This document shows, piece after piece, positions 3 to 26,053 of a stretch of 42,623 nucleotides of DNA; within the stretch, counting starts at the first letter, position 1; every line of letters begins with the position of its first letter. The translations under genes were made by a program, and so were the position numbers. A model generated the notes under the pieces. That model was given only the letters and a program-made list of their open reading frames with translations. It was not told where the DNA came from and did not search any database. Origin of the DNA: Polyangiaceae bacterium (GTDB taxonomy: Bacteria > Myxococcota_A > Polyangia > Polyangiales > Polyangiaceae); the NCBI GenBank assembly GCA_023150915.1, contig JAKLKA010000052.1, positions 1 through 42,623 on the forward strand. Direction: 5' to 3'.

Positions 3-1289
3 GGCGGCGATCCGCAGGTCGTTGCTCAGCTCGGCGTCGGAAAGAGCCGCGCGCTCCGTCGCTGGCTCGGGCGCGCGCTCGCCCTGATGGCGCTCGCGGC
101 GGTGGTCGCGGGGGTCTTCGTCTGGCGCTCGCGGGTGAGCAAGACCACGACCGAGAGCTACGTGAGCTCCGCGGTGGAGCAGGGTGACTTGCGCGAAACG
201 GTCACGGCCACGGGCACGCTCTCGCCGCTCGACTCGGTGCAGGTCGGCGCAGAGGTGACCGGTCGCGTGCTGAAGGTCAACGTGGACGTGAACGACCGGG
301 TGACGGCGGGGCAGGTCTTGGTGGAGATCGACCAAGAGCAGCTCACGGCGCGGGTCGAAGAGTCTCAGGCCCAACTGCGAAGCGCCGAGGCTTCGGTCAA
401 GAGCGCCCGAGCCAGCGTGAAGGAAGCCGAGCTCAAGGCCCAGCGCCTGCGCGAGCTCGGAAAGCGTGGCCTCGCGTCCGCCCAAGAGCTCGAGTCGGCC
501 GAGGCGACGCTGGAGCGGGCCAAGGCCCAGGTCGGGAGCGCGGCGGCGCAGGTCACCGTGGCGCGGGCGGGGCTCAAGTCCACCAAGACCAGCCAGAGCA
601 AGGCGTCGATCAAGTCCCCGATCGACGGGATCGTGCTCGCCCGAAGCGTCGAGCCCGGGCAGACGGTCACCGCCGGCTTCCAGACACCGGTGCTGTTCAC
701 TCTGGCCCGCGACATCACCCAGATGCGCCTGCTGGTCGACGTGGACGAGGCCGACGTCGGCAAGGTCAAGGACGGGCAGCCGGCCAGCTTCGTGGTCGAT
801 GCCTACCCGCGGCGGCAGTTTCTGTCCAAGGTGGTGCGCCTGAACAACCTGCCGAAGTCCGGCACCACCGTCATCACCTATGAAGGCCTGCTGACGGTCG
901 ACAACTCGGAGCGCCTGCTGCGCCCCGGGATGACGGCGACGGCGACCGTGGTGACTCGCGAGGTGCAGGGGGTGTTGACCGTGCCCAACGCGGCGCTGCG
1001 TTTCCGACCCACCACCACCGCCGGTGCGTCGCAGCGGGGCGGGGGGATCCCCATGCCCGGCTTCGGTCGCCCGCCGGGGATGGGGGGCGGGCCGCGCCCG
1101 GCCGGCTCGGCTGCTCCGGGCGCGGGCACGCAGAAGCGGAGCGCGGCGGTGTACGTGTTGCGCGACGGCAAGCCCGCGCGGGTCGCGGTCGAGGTGGGGG
1201 TCACCGACGGCAAGCGCACGGAGGTCCGCTCGAACGAGCTCGGGGCCGGCAGCGAGGTCATCACCGACGTGGCGGAGACCAAGAAGTGA
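3..1289 (+). CDS. MacA-like periplasmic adaptor (HlyD/RND membrane fusion protein), 5' partial
   Basis: Adaptor subunit of a tripartite efflux pump, bridging an inner-membrane ABC transporter and an outer-membrane TolC channel. The frame is open from the left edge with no ATG, GTG or TTG between 3 and 86, so the true start lies outside the window. The in-frame ATG at 87 would cut the N-terminal membrane segment (ALALMALAAVVAGVFVW) in half. From that Met, a biotinyl-lipoyl half-motif (about 35-75), a long coiled-coil hairpin rich in Ala, Glu and Lys (about 85-175), the second lipoyl half (about 175-210) and a beta-barrel domain follow in family order. A Gly/Pro/Met-rich insertion lies near residues 315-347, before the membrane-proximal domain. 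The stop overlaps the next gene (GTGA), so translation is probably coupled. Family is secure; substrate is unknown. Confidence 0.9.
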   Translation, partial: GGDPQVVAQLGVGKSRALRRWLGRALALMALAAVVAGVFVWRSRVSKTTTESYVSSAVEQGDLRETVTATGTLSPLDSVQVGAEVTGRVLKVNVDVNDRVTAGQVLVEIDQEQLTARVEESQAQLRSAEASVKSARASVKEAELKAQRLRELGKRGLASAQELESAEATLERAKAQVGSAAAQVTVARAGLKSTKTSQSKASIKSPIDGIVLARSVEPGQTVTAGFQTPVLFTLARDITQMRLLVDVDEADVGKVKDGQPASFVVDAYPRRQFLSKVVRLNNLPKSGTTVITYEGLLTVDNSERLLRPGMTATATVVTREVQGVLTVPNAALRFRPTTTAGASQRGGGIPMPGFGRPPGMGGGPRPAGSAAPGAGTQKRSAAVYVLRDGKPARVAVEVGVTDGKRTEVRSNELGAGSEVITDVAETKK

Positions 1290-2044
1290 GCGCCGCGCCC
1301 GGCCCGGTGGTGGAATTTGCGCAGGTGTTCAAGATCTATGGCGCGGGCGACACCGAGGTGCGGGCCCTGGACGGCGTCGACATGCGGATCGACGCCGGAG
1401 AGTTCGTGGCCATCATGGGCTCTTCGGGCTCGGGCAAGTCGACGGCGATGAACATCATCGGATGCCTGGATGCGCCCACCCGCGGCGAGTATCGCTTCCG
1501 AGGCGTCGACGTGGGCGCGCTCGATCAGGACCAACGCGCGCTCTTGCGCCGGCACTACGTGGGCTTCGTCTTCCAGGGGTACAACCTGCTCGCGCGTACC
1601 ACCGCCCTGGAGAACGTGGAGCTTCCGCTGGTCTACCGGCGGGTGCCCACCCGCGAGCGTCACGAGCAGGCAATGGCCGCGCTGGTGGCGGTCGGGCTGG
1701 CGGATCGCGCGGGCCACACCCCCGCCGAGCTTTCCGGCGGGCAGCAGCAGCGGGTCGCCATCGCGCGGGCGCTGGTCTCGAGTCCCTCGCTGCTTCTGGC
1801 CGATGAGCCGACCGGAAACCTGGATTCGGCTCGGAAGCACGAAATAGTGGAGCTCCTGGTGCGACTCAACCGGCAGCTCGGCATCACCATCGCCATGGTC
1901 ACGCACGAGCCGGACATGGGGCAGTACGTCTCGCGGGTCGTGATGTTCAAGGACGGGCGCATCGTGGATCAGGGGCTCCCGGCCGATGTGTCGTTCGCCG
2001 GCCCGATCTCCAATCGGCCGCTGTCGCAGCGGGGGGGCGCGTGA
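1286..2044 (+). CDS. MacB/LolD-type ABC transporter ATPase
   Basis: Cytoplasmic ATP-binding subunit that drives the permease encoded next, as in MacAB-TolC or LolCDE-type mechanotransmission transporters. A complete nucleotide-binding domain of 252 aa is visible: Walker [10 protein letters not shown] near residue 45, Q-loop in VFQGYNLL, signature LSGGQQQR near 147, Walker B LLLADEP followed by TGNLDS, and the H-loop in MVTHEPD. All catalytic residues are intact. The GTG start overlaps the stop of the MacA-like gene in GTGA, and its own stop overlaps the permease start the same way. In E. coli MacB the ATPase and permease are one chain; here they are split, which is common outside the gammaproteobacteria. 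Substrate cannot be read from sequence. Confidence 0.95.
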
Positions 2045-8560: not shown

Positions 8561-8632
8561 GGGCGCATAACTCAGCGGTAGAGTGCGACCTTCACACGGT
8601 CGAAGTCGCAGGTTCGATCCCTGCTGCGCCCA
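8561..8632 (+). tRNA. tRNA-Val (anticodon CAC)
   Basis: A full cloverleaf can be drawn: acceptor GGGCGCA (8561-8567) with TGCGCCC (8625-8631), D stem ACTC/GAGT around loop AGCGGTA, anticodon stem CGACC/GGTCG around loop TTCACAC giving anticodon CAC, and T arm GCAGG-TTCGATC-CCTGC. The discriminator is A8632. The next bases are CCC, so the 3' CCA is not encoded and must be added. It decodes GUG, a common Val codon in such a GC-rich genome. Confidence 0.95.
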
Positions 8633-18754: not shown

Positions 18755-21445
18755 ATGCGCCTCGCCGTCGTCGTCGTCCCCTCCGTGGCCAAGGCCAAAG
18801 CGACGGCGCGTCGGATCTCTGGCCTCGCCGACCGCGTGGCCGACCGCCTGTCGGAACCCGACGCGGCCTACCGGGTCGAGGTGCTGGAAGCGCGAGGCAG
18901 GTTGGGGGAGCGCATCGAGAGCCTGCTGCGCGATGCGGGGGCGCGGGGGCCCACCCTGGTGTTCATCTCGTCGGACATCGAGCTGGGGGACGACGGGCCG
19001 GCGCTCGCGCTGGCCGGTGACAGCCGGCTCTTGCTCTCGGATCTGCGCACCACGCTGACCGCCCACGCCGACCAGATCTTGCTGGTGATCGACGGTCAGC
19101 ACGTGCCCGACGAAGACGACCCGACGCTCTCGGCCTCGCTCTTGGACGCCGCGCGGGCAGCGATCGAGCCGAAAGAGAGCGGCATCGCGCTCTTGGTGGG
19201 TGCGCGCCCCGAGGCCGAAGACGAGCCCGGCACCTCGCTGTTCGTGCAGGCGTTGCTTGCCGCGCTCGATCGCGGGCGGGCGCAACTCTCGAAGAGCGGC
19301 AGCGTGGGCGCCGACGCCATCTATCAGGCAATGCGCGCCGACGACGAGCGCTTCCACGCCATCGCGGCGGCTGGCTTCTTCCAGGGTCGCAGCGACTTCC
19401 CGGTGCTGGTGCAGCAATCGGTGGTGGTGGCGGGGGCCGAGTCGGGGCCGCCCTCACGGCGCAGCGCGGCGCCCAGCTCGACCAGCGTGCGCCCGTCGAT
19501 CCCACCCGGTGCCCGCACGCCGGCGGTCGAAGAGGCCTGGAAGCTGGGCAGCACGGCCGCCAGCGAGGGGCGTCACGCCGACGCGGTGGAGCACTACAAG
19601 AAGGCGCTGCTGCTGCTCGGCCAGAAGCCCGAGCGCGCCGAGCTCTACCACCGCATGGGTAGGGCCAAGGCTGCGCTCGGCAAGGACGCCGAGGCACTGC
19701 ACAACTACGACAAGGCCCTGGGCATCGAGCCGCTGCATCACGAGGCCTTCGAGCGCGCCCGTGAGTTGCTCGAGAAAGAGAAGAGCTTCGCGCGGCTCGA
19801 GGCGCTGCACAGGCGCAGGCTGGAAGCGCGGGCCGACGTCGAGGCGAAGATCAAGGAGCTGTCGGCGATCGCGGGCCTGTGGGCCGAGCAGGCCGGCGAG
19901 CCCTCGAAGGCCATCCCCGCGCTCGAGCAGTGGGTCCGCCTGAGGGAAGACGTCGAGGCGCTGGAGCGGCTGGTGGCGGCGCGCGCAGCGGCCGGTCGCC
20001 ACGCTGGCGCGAACGAGGCGCGCAAGCGGCTGGCCGAGCGTTGCGACGCCGACCCGGCGAAGCGGGCGCAGGTGCTGGCCGCGGCGGCCCAGACGGCGCA
20101 GAAGCACTTGCCAGGGGGCGGCGACGCCCTCGAGCTGGCTCGCGCGGCCCTGGACGCCGATCCGGGTGCGCTGGCGGCGCTCGAGGTGGCGGCGCTTGCC
20201 CTGGGCACGCGCCGGCGCTGGCGCGAGCTGGGCGAGATCTACGAGAGCATCTTGCCGCGCATCGCGGACGACACCGTGGGTTGGGATCTGGGCAAGAAGC
20301 TCGGCATGCTCTACCGCGACGAGCTCGACGATCTGGAAGGGGCGCTGCGGGCGTTTGCCAGGGCCGCGCTCAGGAACCCCACGGACGTGGAGCTGCACTT
20401 CTGGCTGGCCGAGCTGTACGAGGCCAAGCAGGACTACGCCGCGGCGGCCACCGAGATGCGGCGCGCCGCCGGCGCCGCCCCCGAGCGGGCCGACGTGCAC
20501 CGGCGTGCGCTGTGGTGCTTCGAGAAGCTGGGCGAGGCGGACGCCGCGTGGAGCGCCGCGTGCGTGCTCGATCAGCTGGGCGAGGCGGACATCAACGAGT
20601 CTCTGGTCGCCGACGCGCATCGCCCCGAGGGGCTGCTCAACGCCCGCGGCGCCTTCGCTGCCGAGCAGTGGGCCGATCTCAGGCCCGAGCGGGACCCGGC
20701 CCTGGAGCGGGTGCTGGCGCTGGCGGCGCCGGCGGCCATCGAGCTCCGACTGCGCCAGCTGACGGACGCCGGGCAGCTGCCGAAGCTGAGCGACGCCACG
20801 CTGCAGAACCCCGCCGGCACCACCACGCTGATGCGCAGCCTGACCTGGACCGCTCGCGTGTTCGGCGCGTCGGCCCCGGCGGTGCACGTCTTGCCCAAGG
20901 TCGAAGGCGATCTCACGCCGCTGCCGCTGGGCGAGCCCACCGCCGCGGCCGCCATCTCGGTGGCCAGCGGGCTCGAGCTGCCCGACCTCGCCTTCTTGTG
21001 GGCACGCGTGCTCGGCTACTTGCACCCCGATCATCGCCTGGTGGTGTTCTTTCCCACGGCGCCCGACGTGGCGAAGCTGCTGCTCTCGGTGCTGGCGCTC
21101 GCCCAGGGTGAGCTGGGCGACGACGACGCATCGGGCATGGCGCGAGAGCTCGACGGCGCGCTGGGCGACGAGGCGCGTGAACAGCTGGTCGACGCCGTGG
21201 CTGCCCTGGGCAAGAAGCGGCTCAAACACCGGGTCGCGACCCATGTGAAGGGCGTTCACGCGGCGGCCAGTCGCGCCGGGCTCGTGGCGTGTGGGGACAT
21301 CGCCCGGGCCATCGCGCTGGCCGGTCGGTTCCCGCTCGGCTCTGGCGCGAGCGAGGCCGAGGTGATCGCCGACCTGCGCGCCTTCGCCATCAGTGCCGAG
21401 CACTGTCGGATCCGCGAGCACCTGGGCGTGGCGGTCCGGGGCTGA
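18755..21445 (+). CDS. Large protein: inactive caspase-like domain, TPR region and conserved C-terminal domain
   Basis: 896 aa, apparently cytoplasmic. Residues 1 to about 225 follow the caspase/metacaspase (C14) strand order: VVVVPS strand, TLVFISSDIE where the catalytic His motif FYYSGHG should be, LLSDLRTTL helix, ILLVIDGQHV where the D-x-C-H-S-G Cys motif should be, IALLVGARPEAE strand, then TSLFVQALLAAL. His is replaced by D74 and Cys by Q115, so I infer a pseudo-enzyme. After a Ser/Pro linker, TPR-like helices run from about 250 to 690 (YHRMGRAKAALGKDAEALHN is a clear repeat). The last 200 residues, from about LMRSLTWTARVF on, resemble the C-terminal module of other large myxobacterial TPR proteins; I know no function for it. 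It starts 42 bp after gor on the same strand. The caspase reading is a manual fold match. Confidence 0.8.
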   Translation: MRLAVVVVPSVAKAKATARRISGLADRVADRLSEPDAAYRVEVLEARGRLGERIESLLRDAGARGPTLVFISSDIELGDDGPALALAGDSRLLLSDLRTTLTAHADQILLVIDGQHVPDEDDPTLSASLLDAARAAIEPKESGIALLVGARPEAEDEPGTSLFVQALLAALDRGRAQLSKSGSVGADAIYQAMRADDERFHAIAAAGFFQGRSDFPVLVQQSVVVAGAESGPPSRRSAAPSSTSVRPSIPPGARTPAVEEAWKLGSTAASEGRHADAVEHYKKALLLLGQKPERAELYHRMGRAKAALGKDAEALHNYDKALGIEPLHHEAFERARELLEKEKSFARLEALHRRRLEARADVEAKIKELSAIAGLWAEQAGEPSKAIPALEQWVRLREDVEALERLVAARAAAGRHAGANEARKRLAERCDADPAKRAQVLAAAAQTAQKHLPGGGDALELARAALDADPGALAALEVAALALGTRRRWRELGEIYESILPRIADDTVGWDLGKKLGMLYRDELDDLEGALRAFARAALRNPTDVELHFWLAELYEAKQDYAAAATEMRRAAGAAPERADVHRRALWCFEKLGEADAAWSAACVLDQLGEADINESLVADAHRPEGLLNARGAFAAEQWADLRPERDPALERVLALAAPAAIELRLRQLTDAGQLPKLSDATLQNPAGTTTLMRSLTWTARVFGASAPAVHVLPKVEGDLTPLPLGEPTAAAAISVASGLELPDLAFLWARVLGYLHPDHRLVVFFPTAPDVAKLLLSVLALAQGELGDDDASGMARELDGALGDEAREQLVDAVAALGKKRLKHRVATHVKGVHAAASRAGLVACGDIARAIALAGRFPLGSGASEAEVIADLRAFAISAEHCRIREHLGVAVRG

Positions 21446-23226: not shown

Positions 23227-24344
23227 TTCGCGAGCCCCGATCGAGCTCGGAGCGCCTGTGCGATCGCCAGCGCCTGGCCCAGCCGCACGGCGCTGCGGCC
23301 GCGGACCTGGGCGGGCACAGGCGCGAGGTTCGCGCGCGCCACCACCGCCTCGAGCGTGCCCGGAGCGCGCTCGAAGGCATTGGCCCAGAGTGCCTTCAAG
23401 CACAGGCCGGCGGGTTCCAGGTCGGCGGCGGCGAGCAGATCCAGCGTGCTCTGGTTCCAGGCGAGCACGATGTCCCGCTTCTTGCGGAAGCTGCGCCAGG
23501 CGCTGGCCAGCTCGGCGGCGGACGCTCCGTGGGCGAGGTCCTGGTCCGACAGCCGCATGTGAAGCTGGCCCGAGGGCGGCGGCCCGGCGACGATCTGATC
23601 GAAGACCTCGCCGGTGGCGGCGCGCATCGCCACCACCTGCACCAGCGCGCGGTGCCCGACACCCGGCGCCGACTCGGCGTACGCGAGCAAAAGATCGGGC
23701 CAGCGCTCTGCGATCACCCGCGCCACCCCGCGGGCGCCGACCCCTCGCCGGCGCTTGCTGCGTCGCGGTCCGGGGCGCTGCTCGATGAAGCGCAGCTGAT
23801 CGTCGATCATCGCGTCGAAGGCGCCGAGCAGTTCGTCGAGGCCGCGGGTCTCGGGCTCGAGCACTCGCAGCGCGGCGACCACCGCTTCCACGGTCGAGAC
23901 GCACTCGACCCGCGGCTCGCGCCGGATGCGATAGCGGCTGGGGTCGACGGCGCCGAGCGTGACCTTCGGCACGCCCGCGAGAAACCCCAGATCACGCTCC
24001 AGGGTGTGGGCGTGGTGCCAGGTGCCGTCGAGCACGATCAACTGCTCGGGGCGCTCGACCGGGGACAGCGATTCGATCGGCCGCGCATCGGCCCCGGGGT
24101 AGAGCAACGCGGTCCCGGGCGCGATCTCGGGGAGCGCACCCCTTGGGCCCGAGAGAAAGGTCACGTCCAGCCGCATGCGCGCCAGCGCCAGCGTCAGAAG
24201 CCGCACCGTGCCGATGGGGTGACGTCGCTCGCGAGGGTGCTGCAGGACCCAGATGCGGGTCCGGTTGTCGACCCGCGGCACGCGCGCGCAGAGGCACGTC
24301 ACCGCCGGCTTCATGCAGCGATAGCAGAAGGGCCGCCCGGTCAC
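23223..24344 (-). CDS. DTW-domain tRNA-uridine aminocarboxypropyltransferase with C-terminal extension
   Basis: DTW proteins (TapT/TuaA family) add the acp group to uridine in tRNA, using S-adenosylmethionine. Of 373 aa, residues 1-190 are the DTW domain: cysteines C7, C10, C17 and C19 in the N-terminal CYRC-MKPAVTCLC pattern, then NRTRIWVLQHPRE, and the name motif DGTW at 106-109. A basic linker (RRSKRRRGVGARG, 194-206) leads to an extra domain of about 165 residues. It looks like a DEDD/DnaQ exonuclease fold with decayed active site (see findings). The GTG at 24344 overlaps the kinase stop as GTGA, and the stop overlaps sfsA as GTGA. The modification position is inferred from the family only. 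Confidence 0.87.
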   Translation of the reverse strand: MTGRPFCYRCMKPAVTCLCARVPRVDNRTRIWVLQHPRERRHPIGTVRLLTLALARMRLDVTFLSGPRGALPEIAPGTALLYPGADARPIESLSPVERPEQLIVLDGTWHHAHTLERDLGFLAGVPKVTLGAVDPSRYRIRREPRVECVSTVEAVVAALRVLEPETRGLDELLGAFDAMIDDQLRFIEQRPGPRRSKRRRGVGARGVARVIAERWPDLLLAYAESAPGVGHRALVQVVAMRAATGEVFDQIVAGPPPSGQLHMRLSDQDLAHGASAAELASAWRSFRKKRDIVLAWNQSTLDLLAAADLEPAGLCLKALWANAFERAPGTLEAVVARANLAPVPAQVRGRSAVRLGQALAIAQALRARSGLAK

Positions 24345-26053
24345 TTCGGCTTGCTCAGCTTCTTGTCGGGCTTGCCCTTGCCCTTGCCCGGATCGCCCTT
24401 CGGATCGGGGTTGGCGGGCGGCGGCGGCGCGGCGCTGGCCGACGAGGTGGCGGTGGGCGCAGCGGGAGGGGGGCTGGTCGACGGCGCGAGGGCCGCGGCC
24501 TTCGGCGCGGCACCGCTCGGGGCCGCCGCGGCAGACGGCCCCGGCGTGGCGCTCTTGGCCGGCGAGCTGGCGGGCTTGCTCGGGGGCACGGGCGTGCCGG
24601 CGGGGCCGGGCTCGCTCGGATCGGCCGGCGCTGGGGTCGGCTCCGTCGCCGTCGGAGCCGCGCCTGCGGGCGGCGCCGCGTTCGCGATCTCGGGGCTGGC
24701 GGATGCCGCGGCGCCCGGCGACTCCCACGGTCGCATCAGCAGCGCGCCCGCAGCGACCAGGCCGAGCGCCACCAGCCCGAACGCAGCGAACACCAGGAAC
24801 GCCACGGCGCCGCGATGCTTCTTGGGGGTCGGCAGCGGCGCGGCAACTGCCGGCGGCGCGCCCGCCATCGAGTACGGGGGCAGCGATGCGGGGACGGGCT
24901 CGGCGGCGAACTGCCCGGGCGCCGCCAGCGAGTACGCGGGCAGCGACGCGGGAACGGGCTCGGCGGCGAACTGCCCGGGCGTCGCCAGCGAGTACGCGGG
25001 CAGCGACGCGGGAACGGGTTCGGCGGCAAACTGCCCGGGCGCCGCCAGCGAAGCCGGCGCCTGCGACGGCCCCGGCGCCACGACCGTGATCGGCGCGGGC
25101 GACACCACCGTCGGAGCCTCGCGCAGCGACGCCGGCCCTTCGATCCGGGTGGCTTCTTCGGCGCGGGCCGTGGCCGCCATGGCGAAGTGGGGCAGGGTGC
25201 CCTCGAGCACGGCTCGCACGTCGCGCTGCATGGTTGCGGCGTCGGGGTAGCGGGCGTCTTGCGAAAACGCCAGCGCCCGGTCGACGATCGCGCAGACCGC
25301 CGGCGGCGTGGCCGGCGCCACCTCGGCCAGGCGTGGCGCCGGCTTGGTCGCCATGGCGACCAAGAGCTCGGCCTCGCTCGGCTCTTCGTGGATGCGACGC
25401 CCGGCGAGCGCGCGGAACATCAGTGCACCCAGCGCGAACAGATCCGTGCGGCCATCCACCTTGCCGCGGCGACCCAGCGCCTGCTCGGGCGCCATGTAAG
25501 GGATGGTGCCGAGCGCAAGCCCGGTGCGCGTCTTGAACTCGCTTGGCACGTCGTCGATCACGCGCGCAATGCCGAAATCCAGGATCTTGATGCCACCCTG
25601 TGCCGGCACGAAGACGTTGTCGGGCTTGATGTCGCGATGCACCACCCCGGCCGCGTGCGCCGCGCCCAGCGCGCTCAGGATCTGGTCCGAATAGCCGAGC
25701 AGGTCTCGCACCGTGAATTGATCCGCGCGCTGCAGGCGCGCCCCCAGCGACTCGCCCTCGAGCAACTCGAGCACCAAGAACACGTCGGGCCCATCCGCGT
25801 GCTCGAGCACCCGCACGATCCCCGGATGGCCGATGCGGTTGGCCACGTACGCCTCGCGCAAGAAGCGCTCTTTCAGCTCGCGCCGCCTCGCCATCTCGGC
25901 GTGCAAGATCTTCAGCGCGACGCGCTGGCCGCTCGCGTCGGTCGCCTCGTAGACCGAGGCCATCCCGCCGCTGCCCAGGAAGCGGATCAGCCGCCAGCGG
26001 TCGCCGACCGTCTGGCCGCTTCGGTCTTCGGCAATTTCGGGGGGCAGCGCCAT
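24341..26053 (-). CDS. Eukaryotic-type serine/threonine protein kinase with membrane anchor
   Basis: Inner-membrane Hanks-type kinase, 570 aa. The kinase domain (about 20-285) is complete: Gly loop GSGGMASVYE, K48 in VALKIL, catalytic D141 in HRDIKPDN, D159 in DFGIAR, and MAPEQ at the end of the activation segment. A cytoplasmic linker contains three 20-residue repeats (about 336-395, unit like LAAPGQFAAEPVPASLPAYS). One helix at 415-440 follows a basic KKHRG stop. The outer tail is Pro/Ala/Ser-rich and ends in a lysine-rich stretch (KGKGKPDKKLSKPK), with no PASTA or other sensor domain. It is first in an operon with the DTW and sfsA genes. Myxobacteria encode many such kinases; substrates are unknown. 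Confidence 0.93.
   Translation of the reverse strand: MALPPEIAEDRSGQTVGDRWRLIRFLGSGGMASVYEATDASGQRVALKILHAEMARRRELKERFLREAYVANRIGHPGIVRVLEHADGPDVFLVLELLEGESLGARLQRADQFTVRDLLGYSDQILSALGAAHAAGVVHRDIKPDNVFVPAQGGIKILDFGIARVIDDVPSEFKTRTGLALGTIPYMAPEQALGRRGKVDGRTDLFALGALMFRALAGRRIHEEPSEAELLVAMATKPAPRLAEVAPATPPAVCAIVDRALAFSQDARYPDAATMQRDVRAVLEGTLPHFAMAATARAEEATRIEGPASLREAPTVVSPAPITVVAPGPSQAPASLAAPGQFAAEPVPASLPAYSLATPGQFAAEPVPASLPAYSLAAPGQFAAEPVPASLPPYSMAGAPPAVAAPLPTPKKHRGAVAFLVFAAFGLVALGLVAAGALLMRPWESPGAAASASPEIANAAPPAGAAPTATEPTPAPADPSEPGPAGTPVPPSKPASSPAKSATPGPSAAAAPSGAAPKAAALAPSTSPPPAAPTATSSASAAPPPPANPDPKGDPGKGKGKPDKKLSKPK
24871..25050 (-). repeat. Three tandem 60-bp repeats inside the kinase gene
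   Basis: Three consecutive 60-base units (24871-24930, 24931-24990, 24991-25050) are nearly identical and differ at only a few positions. The period is an exact multiple of three, so each unit codes for 20 residues of the linker between the kinase domain and the membrane helix. A recent slippage or recombination origin is likely, and copy number may vary between strains. Confidence 0.95.

Follow-up and report, generated by a model that had tools for sequence, protein, structure and literature searches.

The window, that is, the whole stretch of 42,623 nucleotides of a Polyangiaceae bacterium that was analysed, carries a gene for a protein of 896 amino acids, in which a pseudo-caspase domain, a linker, a series of TPRs and a C-terminal module related to M48 peptidases follow one another (Table 1). 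The open reading frame is real, running from an ATG at 18755 to a stop at 21445, and its translation is as the earlier note gave it. When the complete protein was searched against Pfam and NCBIfam, only TPR models were matched, and no match was found among the defence families of PADLOC-DB. Neither a signal peptide nor a membrane helix was seen in the protein.

The annotated open reading frames around this gene encode an oxidoreductase, a kinase, a methyltransferase and a TerB-like protein. The end of a pyridine-nucleotide disulphide oxidoreductase gene lies 42 bases upstream, and the two genes also adjoin in one congener (G002); they are separated in a second congener (G001) and were not found side by side in other genera, and no operon partner was inferred. 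Gene order around the pseudo-caspase gene is not conserved beyond the genus, other genera having other neighbours. In members of four genera (L029, L030, L031 and L035) a gene of some 720 codons runs convergently towards the pseudo-caspase gene; it encodes an M3 family oligopeptidase in the two that were tested (L029 and L030) and was judged by size and position in the other two. Elsewhere in the window, a Ser/Thr kinase gene (24341-26053, minus strand) contains, in its Pro/Ala-rich part, a 60-bp tandem repeat of 3.5 copies (24840-25101).

Table 1. Coordinates in the window of the pseudo-caspase gene, its domains and the motifs assigned by alignment
Feature	Residues	Position	Strand	Basis
Whole gene (pseudo-caspase domain, linker, TPRs, M48-related C-terminal module)	1-896	18755..21445	+	
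N-terminal domain, predicted caspase fold, without cysteine	1-222	18755..19420	+	AlphaFold2 (AF2), VIA, hhalign, sequence
Former His motif (SGHG), now SSDI; D74 codon 18974-18976	72-75	18968..18979	+	Sequence, alignment/profile columns
Former Cys motif (DxCHSG), now DGQHVP; Q115 codon 19097-19099	113-118	19091..19108	+	Sequence, alignment/profile columns
Ser/Pro-rich linker	223-260	19421..19534	+	Sequence; pLDDT low from about residue 221
TPR region	261-582	19535..20500	+	Pfam TPR families, best E 5.6e-10
C-terminal module, probably M48/gluzincin-related with zinc site lost	591-896	20525..21442	+	AF2, VIA, hhalign
Putative former HExxH, now R751-V752-L-G-Y755	751-755	21005..21019	+	Profile alignment, module columns
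Putative former M48 third-ligand region (VxxAxRAGLxxCGD), Glu position H835		21254..21298	+	Profile alignment, module columns

Caspase fold and lost catalytic residues

Based on an alignment of 16 homologues (the window protein plus 15 from related genomes), the N-terminal domain was modelled by AlphaFold2 with a pLDDT of 90.3 and a pTM of 0.89. All 50 matches listed by Foldseek for this model were caspases, paracaspases, metacaspases or a bacterial homologue (best E 8e-7). Among the 50 matches listed by VIA-align only caspase-like folds were present, with procaspase-7 at the top (Z 17.6; rmsd 3.0 Å over 194 residues) and the dead domain of c-FLIP-L (3h13) among them (Z 16.5). Residues 1-222 are thus predicted with high confidence to have a caspase fold whose boundary lies at about residue 222. 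The structure prediction that the earlier note had proposed for residues 1-230, for comparison with metacaspases and paracaspases, therefore gave the caspase fold, in agreement with its reading that the first 225 residues follow the caspase order of elements.

At the level of sequence, homology of this domain to C14 peptidases appears in profile comparisons only. The search with a Peptidase_C14 model that had also been proposed gave nothing for the single sequence: residues 1-232 had no Pfam match even at E 10, and PF00656 matched none of the 16 family members. By hhalign, on the other hand, the family profile was aligned with 24 C14 domains of its own bacterial family at a probability of 98.0 (E 2.9e-13), versus 0.3% for the best of 30 column-shuffled controls, at most 0.3% for crosswise controls and 5.1% for the reversed one. 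The family profile itself also picks up Pfam-confirmed C14 proteins that bear SGHG and the Cys (E 5e-9 to 6e-5). Among PDB sequences it found nothing credible, the best match (E 0.022) being a designed binder.

In the hhalign alignment, the His column of SGHG is occupied by D74 and the Cys column of DxC by Q115, and the same placement was obtained from four Pfam-confirmed C14 proteins (L107, L109, L110 and L111). Both of the replacements described in the earlier note, SSDI with D74 and DGQHVP with Q115, lie exactly where it had put them, and the protein has neither the catalytic His nor the catalytic Cys of an active C14 peptidase. As residues 1-250 contain no cysteine at all, the window domain cannot be a C14 cysteine protease. 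Among 61 homologues, the Cys column holds a Cys in none (mostly R, V, A or H) and the His column a His in one (some members carry Y), while position 113 is D or E in all 61. The member with the His (L088, on G131:C926) is the only one in the family that keeps SGH, as SGHV, and has V at the Cys site. All three species of the genus have D74, but only the window species has Q115, with K in the other two. Thus D74 and Q115, which were to be examined for fixation in orthologues, are not fixed; what is fixed is the lack of the Cys, along with the near absence of the His. In many homologues (for example, L029, L031 and L113-L120; an E-C-[RH]-H subset) a Cys stands one residue before the old site, and this subset is without the catalytic His.

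In a quick maximum-likelihood tree with midpoint rooting, built on a divergent alignment, the dead family was separated from C14 domains by one branch with an SH-aLRT of 100. Within the genus, dN/dS of the N-terminal domain is 0.15-0.30, with similar values for the TPR and C-terminal parts, so that all domains are under purifying selection of similar strength. The catalytic loss is ancient and shared across the family; the decay of a real C14 site suspected earlier was rightly recognized, yet it is not recent. Given the family-wide loss, the single branch and the purifying selection, we take the domain to be an old, maintained pseudo-enzyme. An inactive C14-like domain joined to TPRs, the core of the earlier proposal, is hence backed by fold, profile homology and the alignment of orthologues.

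Via profile search, the pseudo-caspase domain was found in 53 genomes out of 183 from the order, and every one of the 53 belongs to the family of the window; the count excludes G134 and G139, whose matches were a genuine C14 protein and a doubtful match. The family was taken as Polyangiaceae because, where a carrier has a name, it is Sorangium cellulosum, Polyangium, Minicystis rosea or a Byssovorax assembly. Matches elsewhere in the phylum were weak, and the four that were read are C14-like proteins, three of them with the His/Cys pair. A single-protein scan of the genome contigs with the N-terminal domain of the window protein found no relative.

A p20-like domain without the His-Cys dyad would place the protein among the pseudo-orthocaspases, of which the substitution classes YS, YA, YN, FS and QC have been published, the FS class reportedly with TPRs C-terminal to p20 (PMC6426788). 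These were reported mainly in Alphaproteobacteria and Cyanobacteria, via searches for recognisable p20 domains (PMC6426788, PMC7889975), and one of them affects survival of oxidative stress in Synechocystis (PMC7889975). The window protein shares with them the p20-type caspase fold, the replaced dyad and, as in the FS class, the TPRs. However, its D/Q pair belongs to none of the published classes, and it differs further in being part of a Polyangiaceae family that lies under Pfam detection, in which the pair varies widely outside the window, and in its M48-related C-terminal module.

The C-terminal module and its relation to GltI

Residues 591-896 were modelled as one confident domain (pLDDT 94.9; AF2). 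Pfam gave no consistent match to the module and none to M48 for any single member. The top structures by VIA are all zinc proteases of the gluzincin type: Ste24p (Z 8.2), BlaR1, BepA (Z 7.5) and abylysin, a minigluzincin (Z 6.8; rmsd 2.6 Å over 94 residues). This fold comparison is weak, with VIA Z at most 8.2 and Foldseek not significant. By hhalign, the module was aligned with 16 M48 domains at a probability of 94.1 and an E of 1.2e-7, with no control above 0.3%, in an alignment that takes in the helix of HExxH as well as the segment of the third ligand. Across the aligned modules, the H, E and H columns of HExxH most often hold R, H and Y, respectively, and the motif is absent from 40 aligned modules and from 20 matches phylum-wide. 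With M48 peptidases (Ste24, HtpX, BepA) and other gluzincins, the module thus has in common a distant profile homology and a weak structural likeness over residues ~690-860, but it differs from them in having no HExxH and, in the window, a His at the position of the third-ligand Glu. We read it as a distant M48 relative and a second retired protease, less certainly than we do the pseudo-caspase. That the protein ends in a conserved module had been recognized in the earlier note; the M48 relation and the lost zinc motif had been missed.

The module is present in 49 of 54 apparently complete family members from many genera. The members without it are short paralogues of Polyangium-type genomes (L033 and L074-L077), where a second, shorter protein of ~517-530 amino acids has the pseudo-caspase and TPRs. 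In the closest orthologue (L025, on G002:C98), a single in-frame stop (8571-8573, plus strand) falls in the C-terminal module and homologous sequence resumes beyond it, suggesting either a sequencing error or a recent truncation.

Beyond the family, the module was found in 129 of 235 genomes of the phylum, often ending open reading frames of 3,300-4,200 amino acids. The best paralogue in the window's genome is such a TPR giant (3,779 amino acids, on contig C292; E 5.9e-67 over window residues 276-894), and its gene adjoins a GltG-like gene (E 9.5e-101 to NF033760, which is under the curated cut-off of that model). In M. xanthus, gltI/agmK is a TPR gene of 4,132 amino acids in the G1 cluster with gltG (PMC3169522). 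We read the 3,779-residue giant as GltI/AgmK on the basis of neighbourhood, length and TPRs rather than a curated GltI model. As the TPRs and module of the window protein match the tail of this giant beside gltG, the protein resembles the tail of a GltI-type protein with a pseudo-caspase placed in front. TPRs, the same C-terminal module and the absence of a signal peptide (PMC3169522) are common to both, whereas GltI/AgmK is of ~3,800-4,100 amino acids, versus 896, and the window protein bears the pseudo-caspase at its head and is encoded in no glt cluster. Being found in only 53 of the 183 genomes of the order, it is therefore not a core part of motility.

Possible roles of the protein

We favour, at a probability of roughly two in three, the reading that in Polyangiaceae the protein serves as a scaffold or adaptor, soluble and probably cytosolic, whose TPRs lie between an N-terminal pseudo-caspase and a C-terminal pseudo-metallopeptidase. 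Both former protease folds would no longer cut, and their old protease surfaces may bind partners or peptides; the TPRs would hold further partners, so that the protein would assemble a complex. Its likeliest place may be the gliding or other motility machinery, a guess from its presumed descent from a GltI-type tail. The scaffold role that had been suggested earlier fits this anatomy in its TPRs, its lack of catalytic residues at either end and its lack of a signal peptide or membrane helix. A single conserved ligand at the pseudo-active site is not suggested by its residues, which differ greatly from genus to genus. In a broader and distinctly more tentative version, the pseudo-M48 module, taken to end GltI and other TPR giants across the phylum, would serve generally for docking in the motility or polarity complexes of myxobacteria, and this adaptor of two retired proteases would connect a caspase-like sensor to them.

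The protein might instead act on an active bacterial caspase as a decoy or dominant-negative regulator, much like c-FLIP; a decoy in a bacterial peptidase network had been suggested in the earlier note. This would be in line with the likeness of the fold to c-FLIP-L among others and with the presence of genuine C14 proteins in 63 of the 108 genomes of the family, a count that takes in some dead ones, for example L125. Both c-FLIP-L and the window protein keep a dead caspase fold, in c-FLIP-L as a binding module; but c-FLIP-L is metazoan and paired with active caspase-8, and no such partner is evident here. The congeners G001 and G002 carry the protein, yet a C14 domain was detected in them neither by Pfam nor by the C14 profile, and for this reason the decoy is unsupported and unlikely. 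In the window's own genome, one TPR-linked protein with a Pfam C14 match (L125; G000:C289, about 249-1532, minus strand) is apparently dead, with FAGR at the His site (R for His) and DGSR, thus no Cys, at the Cys site. The only C14-like match found there that bears His and Cys (L217; G000:C50:9065-9607, minus strand) has a caspase-like domain with SSHG and DSC and a lipoprotein-like N-terminus, by which it is probably exported.

A decaying relic under no useful selection, which we hold to be about as improbable as the decoy, would account for the variable site, the patchy distribution and the in-frame stop in the G002 copy; it is at odds with the dN/dS in every domain and with the 49 apparently complete copies that retain the TPR-module architecture in many genera. 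Continued catalysis by the N-terminal domain through a remodelled active site, such as one built on the displaced Cys of E-C-[RH]-H members, is very improbable: many homologues do have that Cys, but the subset has no His and both sites are freely variable. For the window protein itself, with no Cys there, a shifted-Cys enzyme was set aside. The silence of the Pfam C14 model for the single sequence and the 16 family members might point to some other Rossmann-like alpha/beta domain, least probable of all, as it is effectively refuted by the fold search (Z 17.6, caspase-like folds only among the 50 listed) and by the profile alignment at 98.0 versus its controls.

Compared with the literature searched, what appears new is the Polyangiaceae family, its C-terminal pseudo-M48 module and the connection with tails of the GltI type. 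The first would mean that a bacterial caspase was retired long ago throughout a whole family, unnoticed by standard domain libraries. As the pseudo-caspase is kept where no active caspase is detectable, the caspase fold would be separated from proteolysis in bacteria. Furthermore, a dead M48 peptidase may offer a testable identity for the unexplained tail that TPR giants of the GltI type carry in the gliding machinery of myxobacteria.
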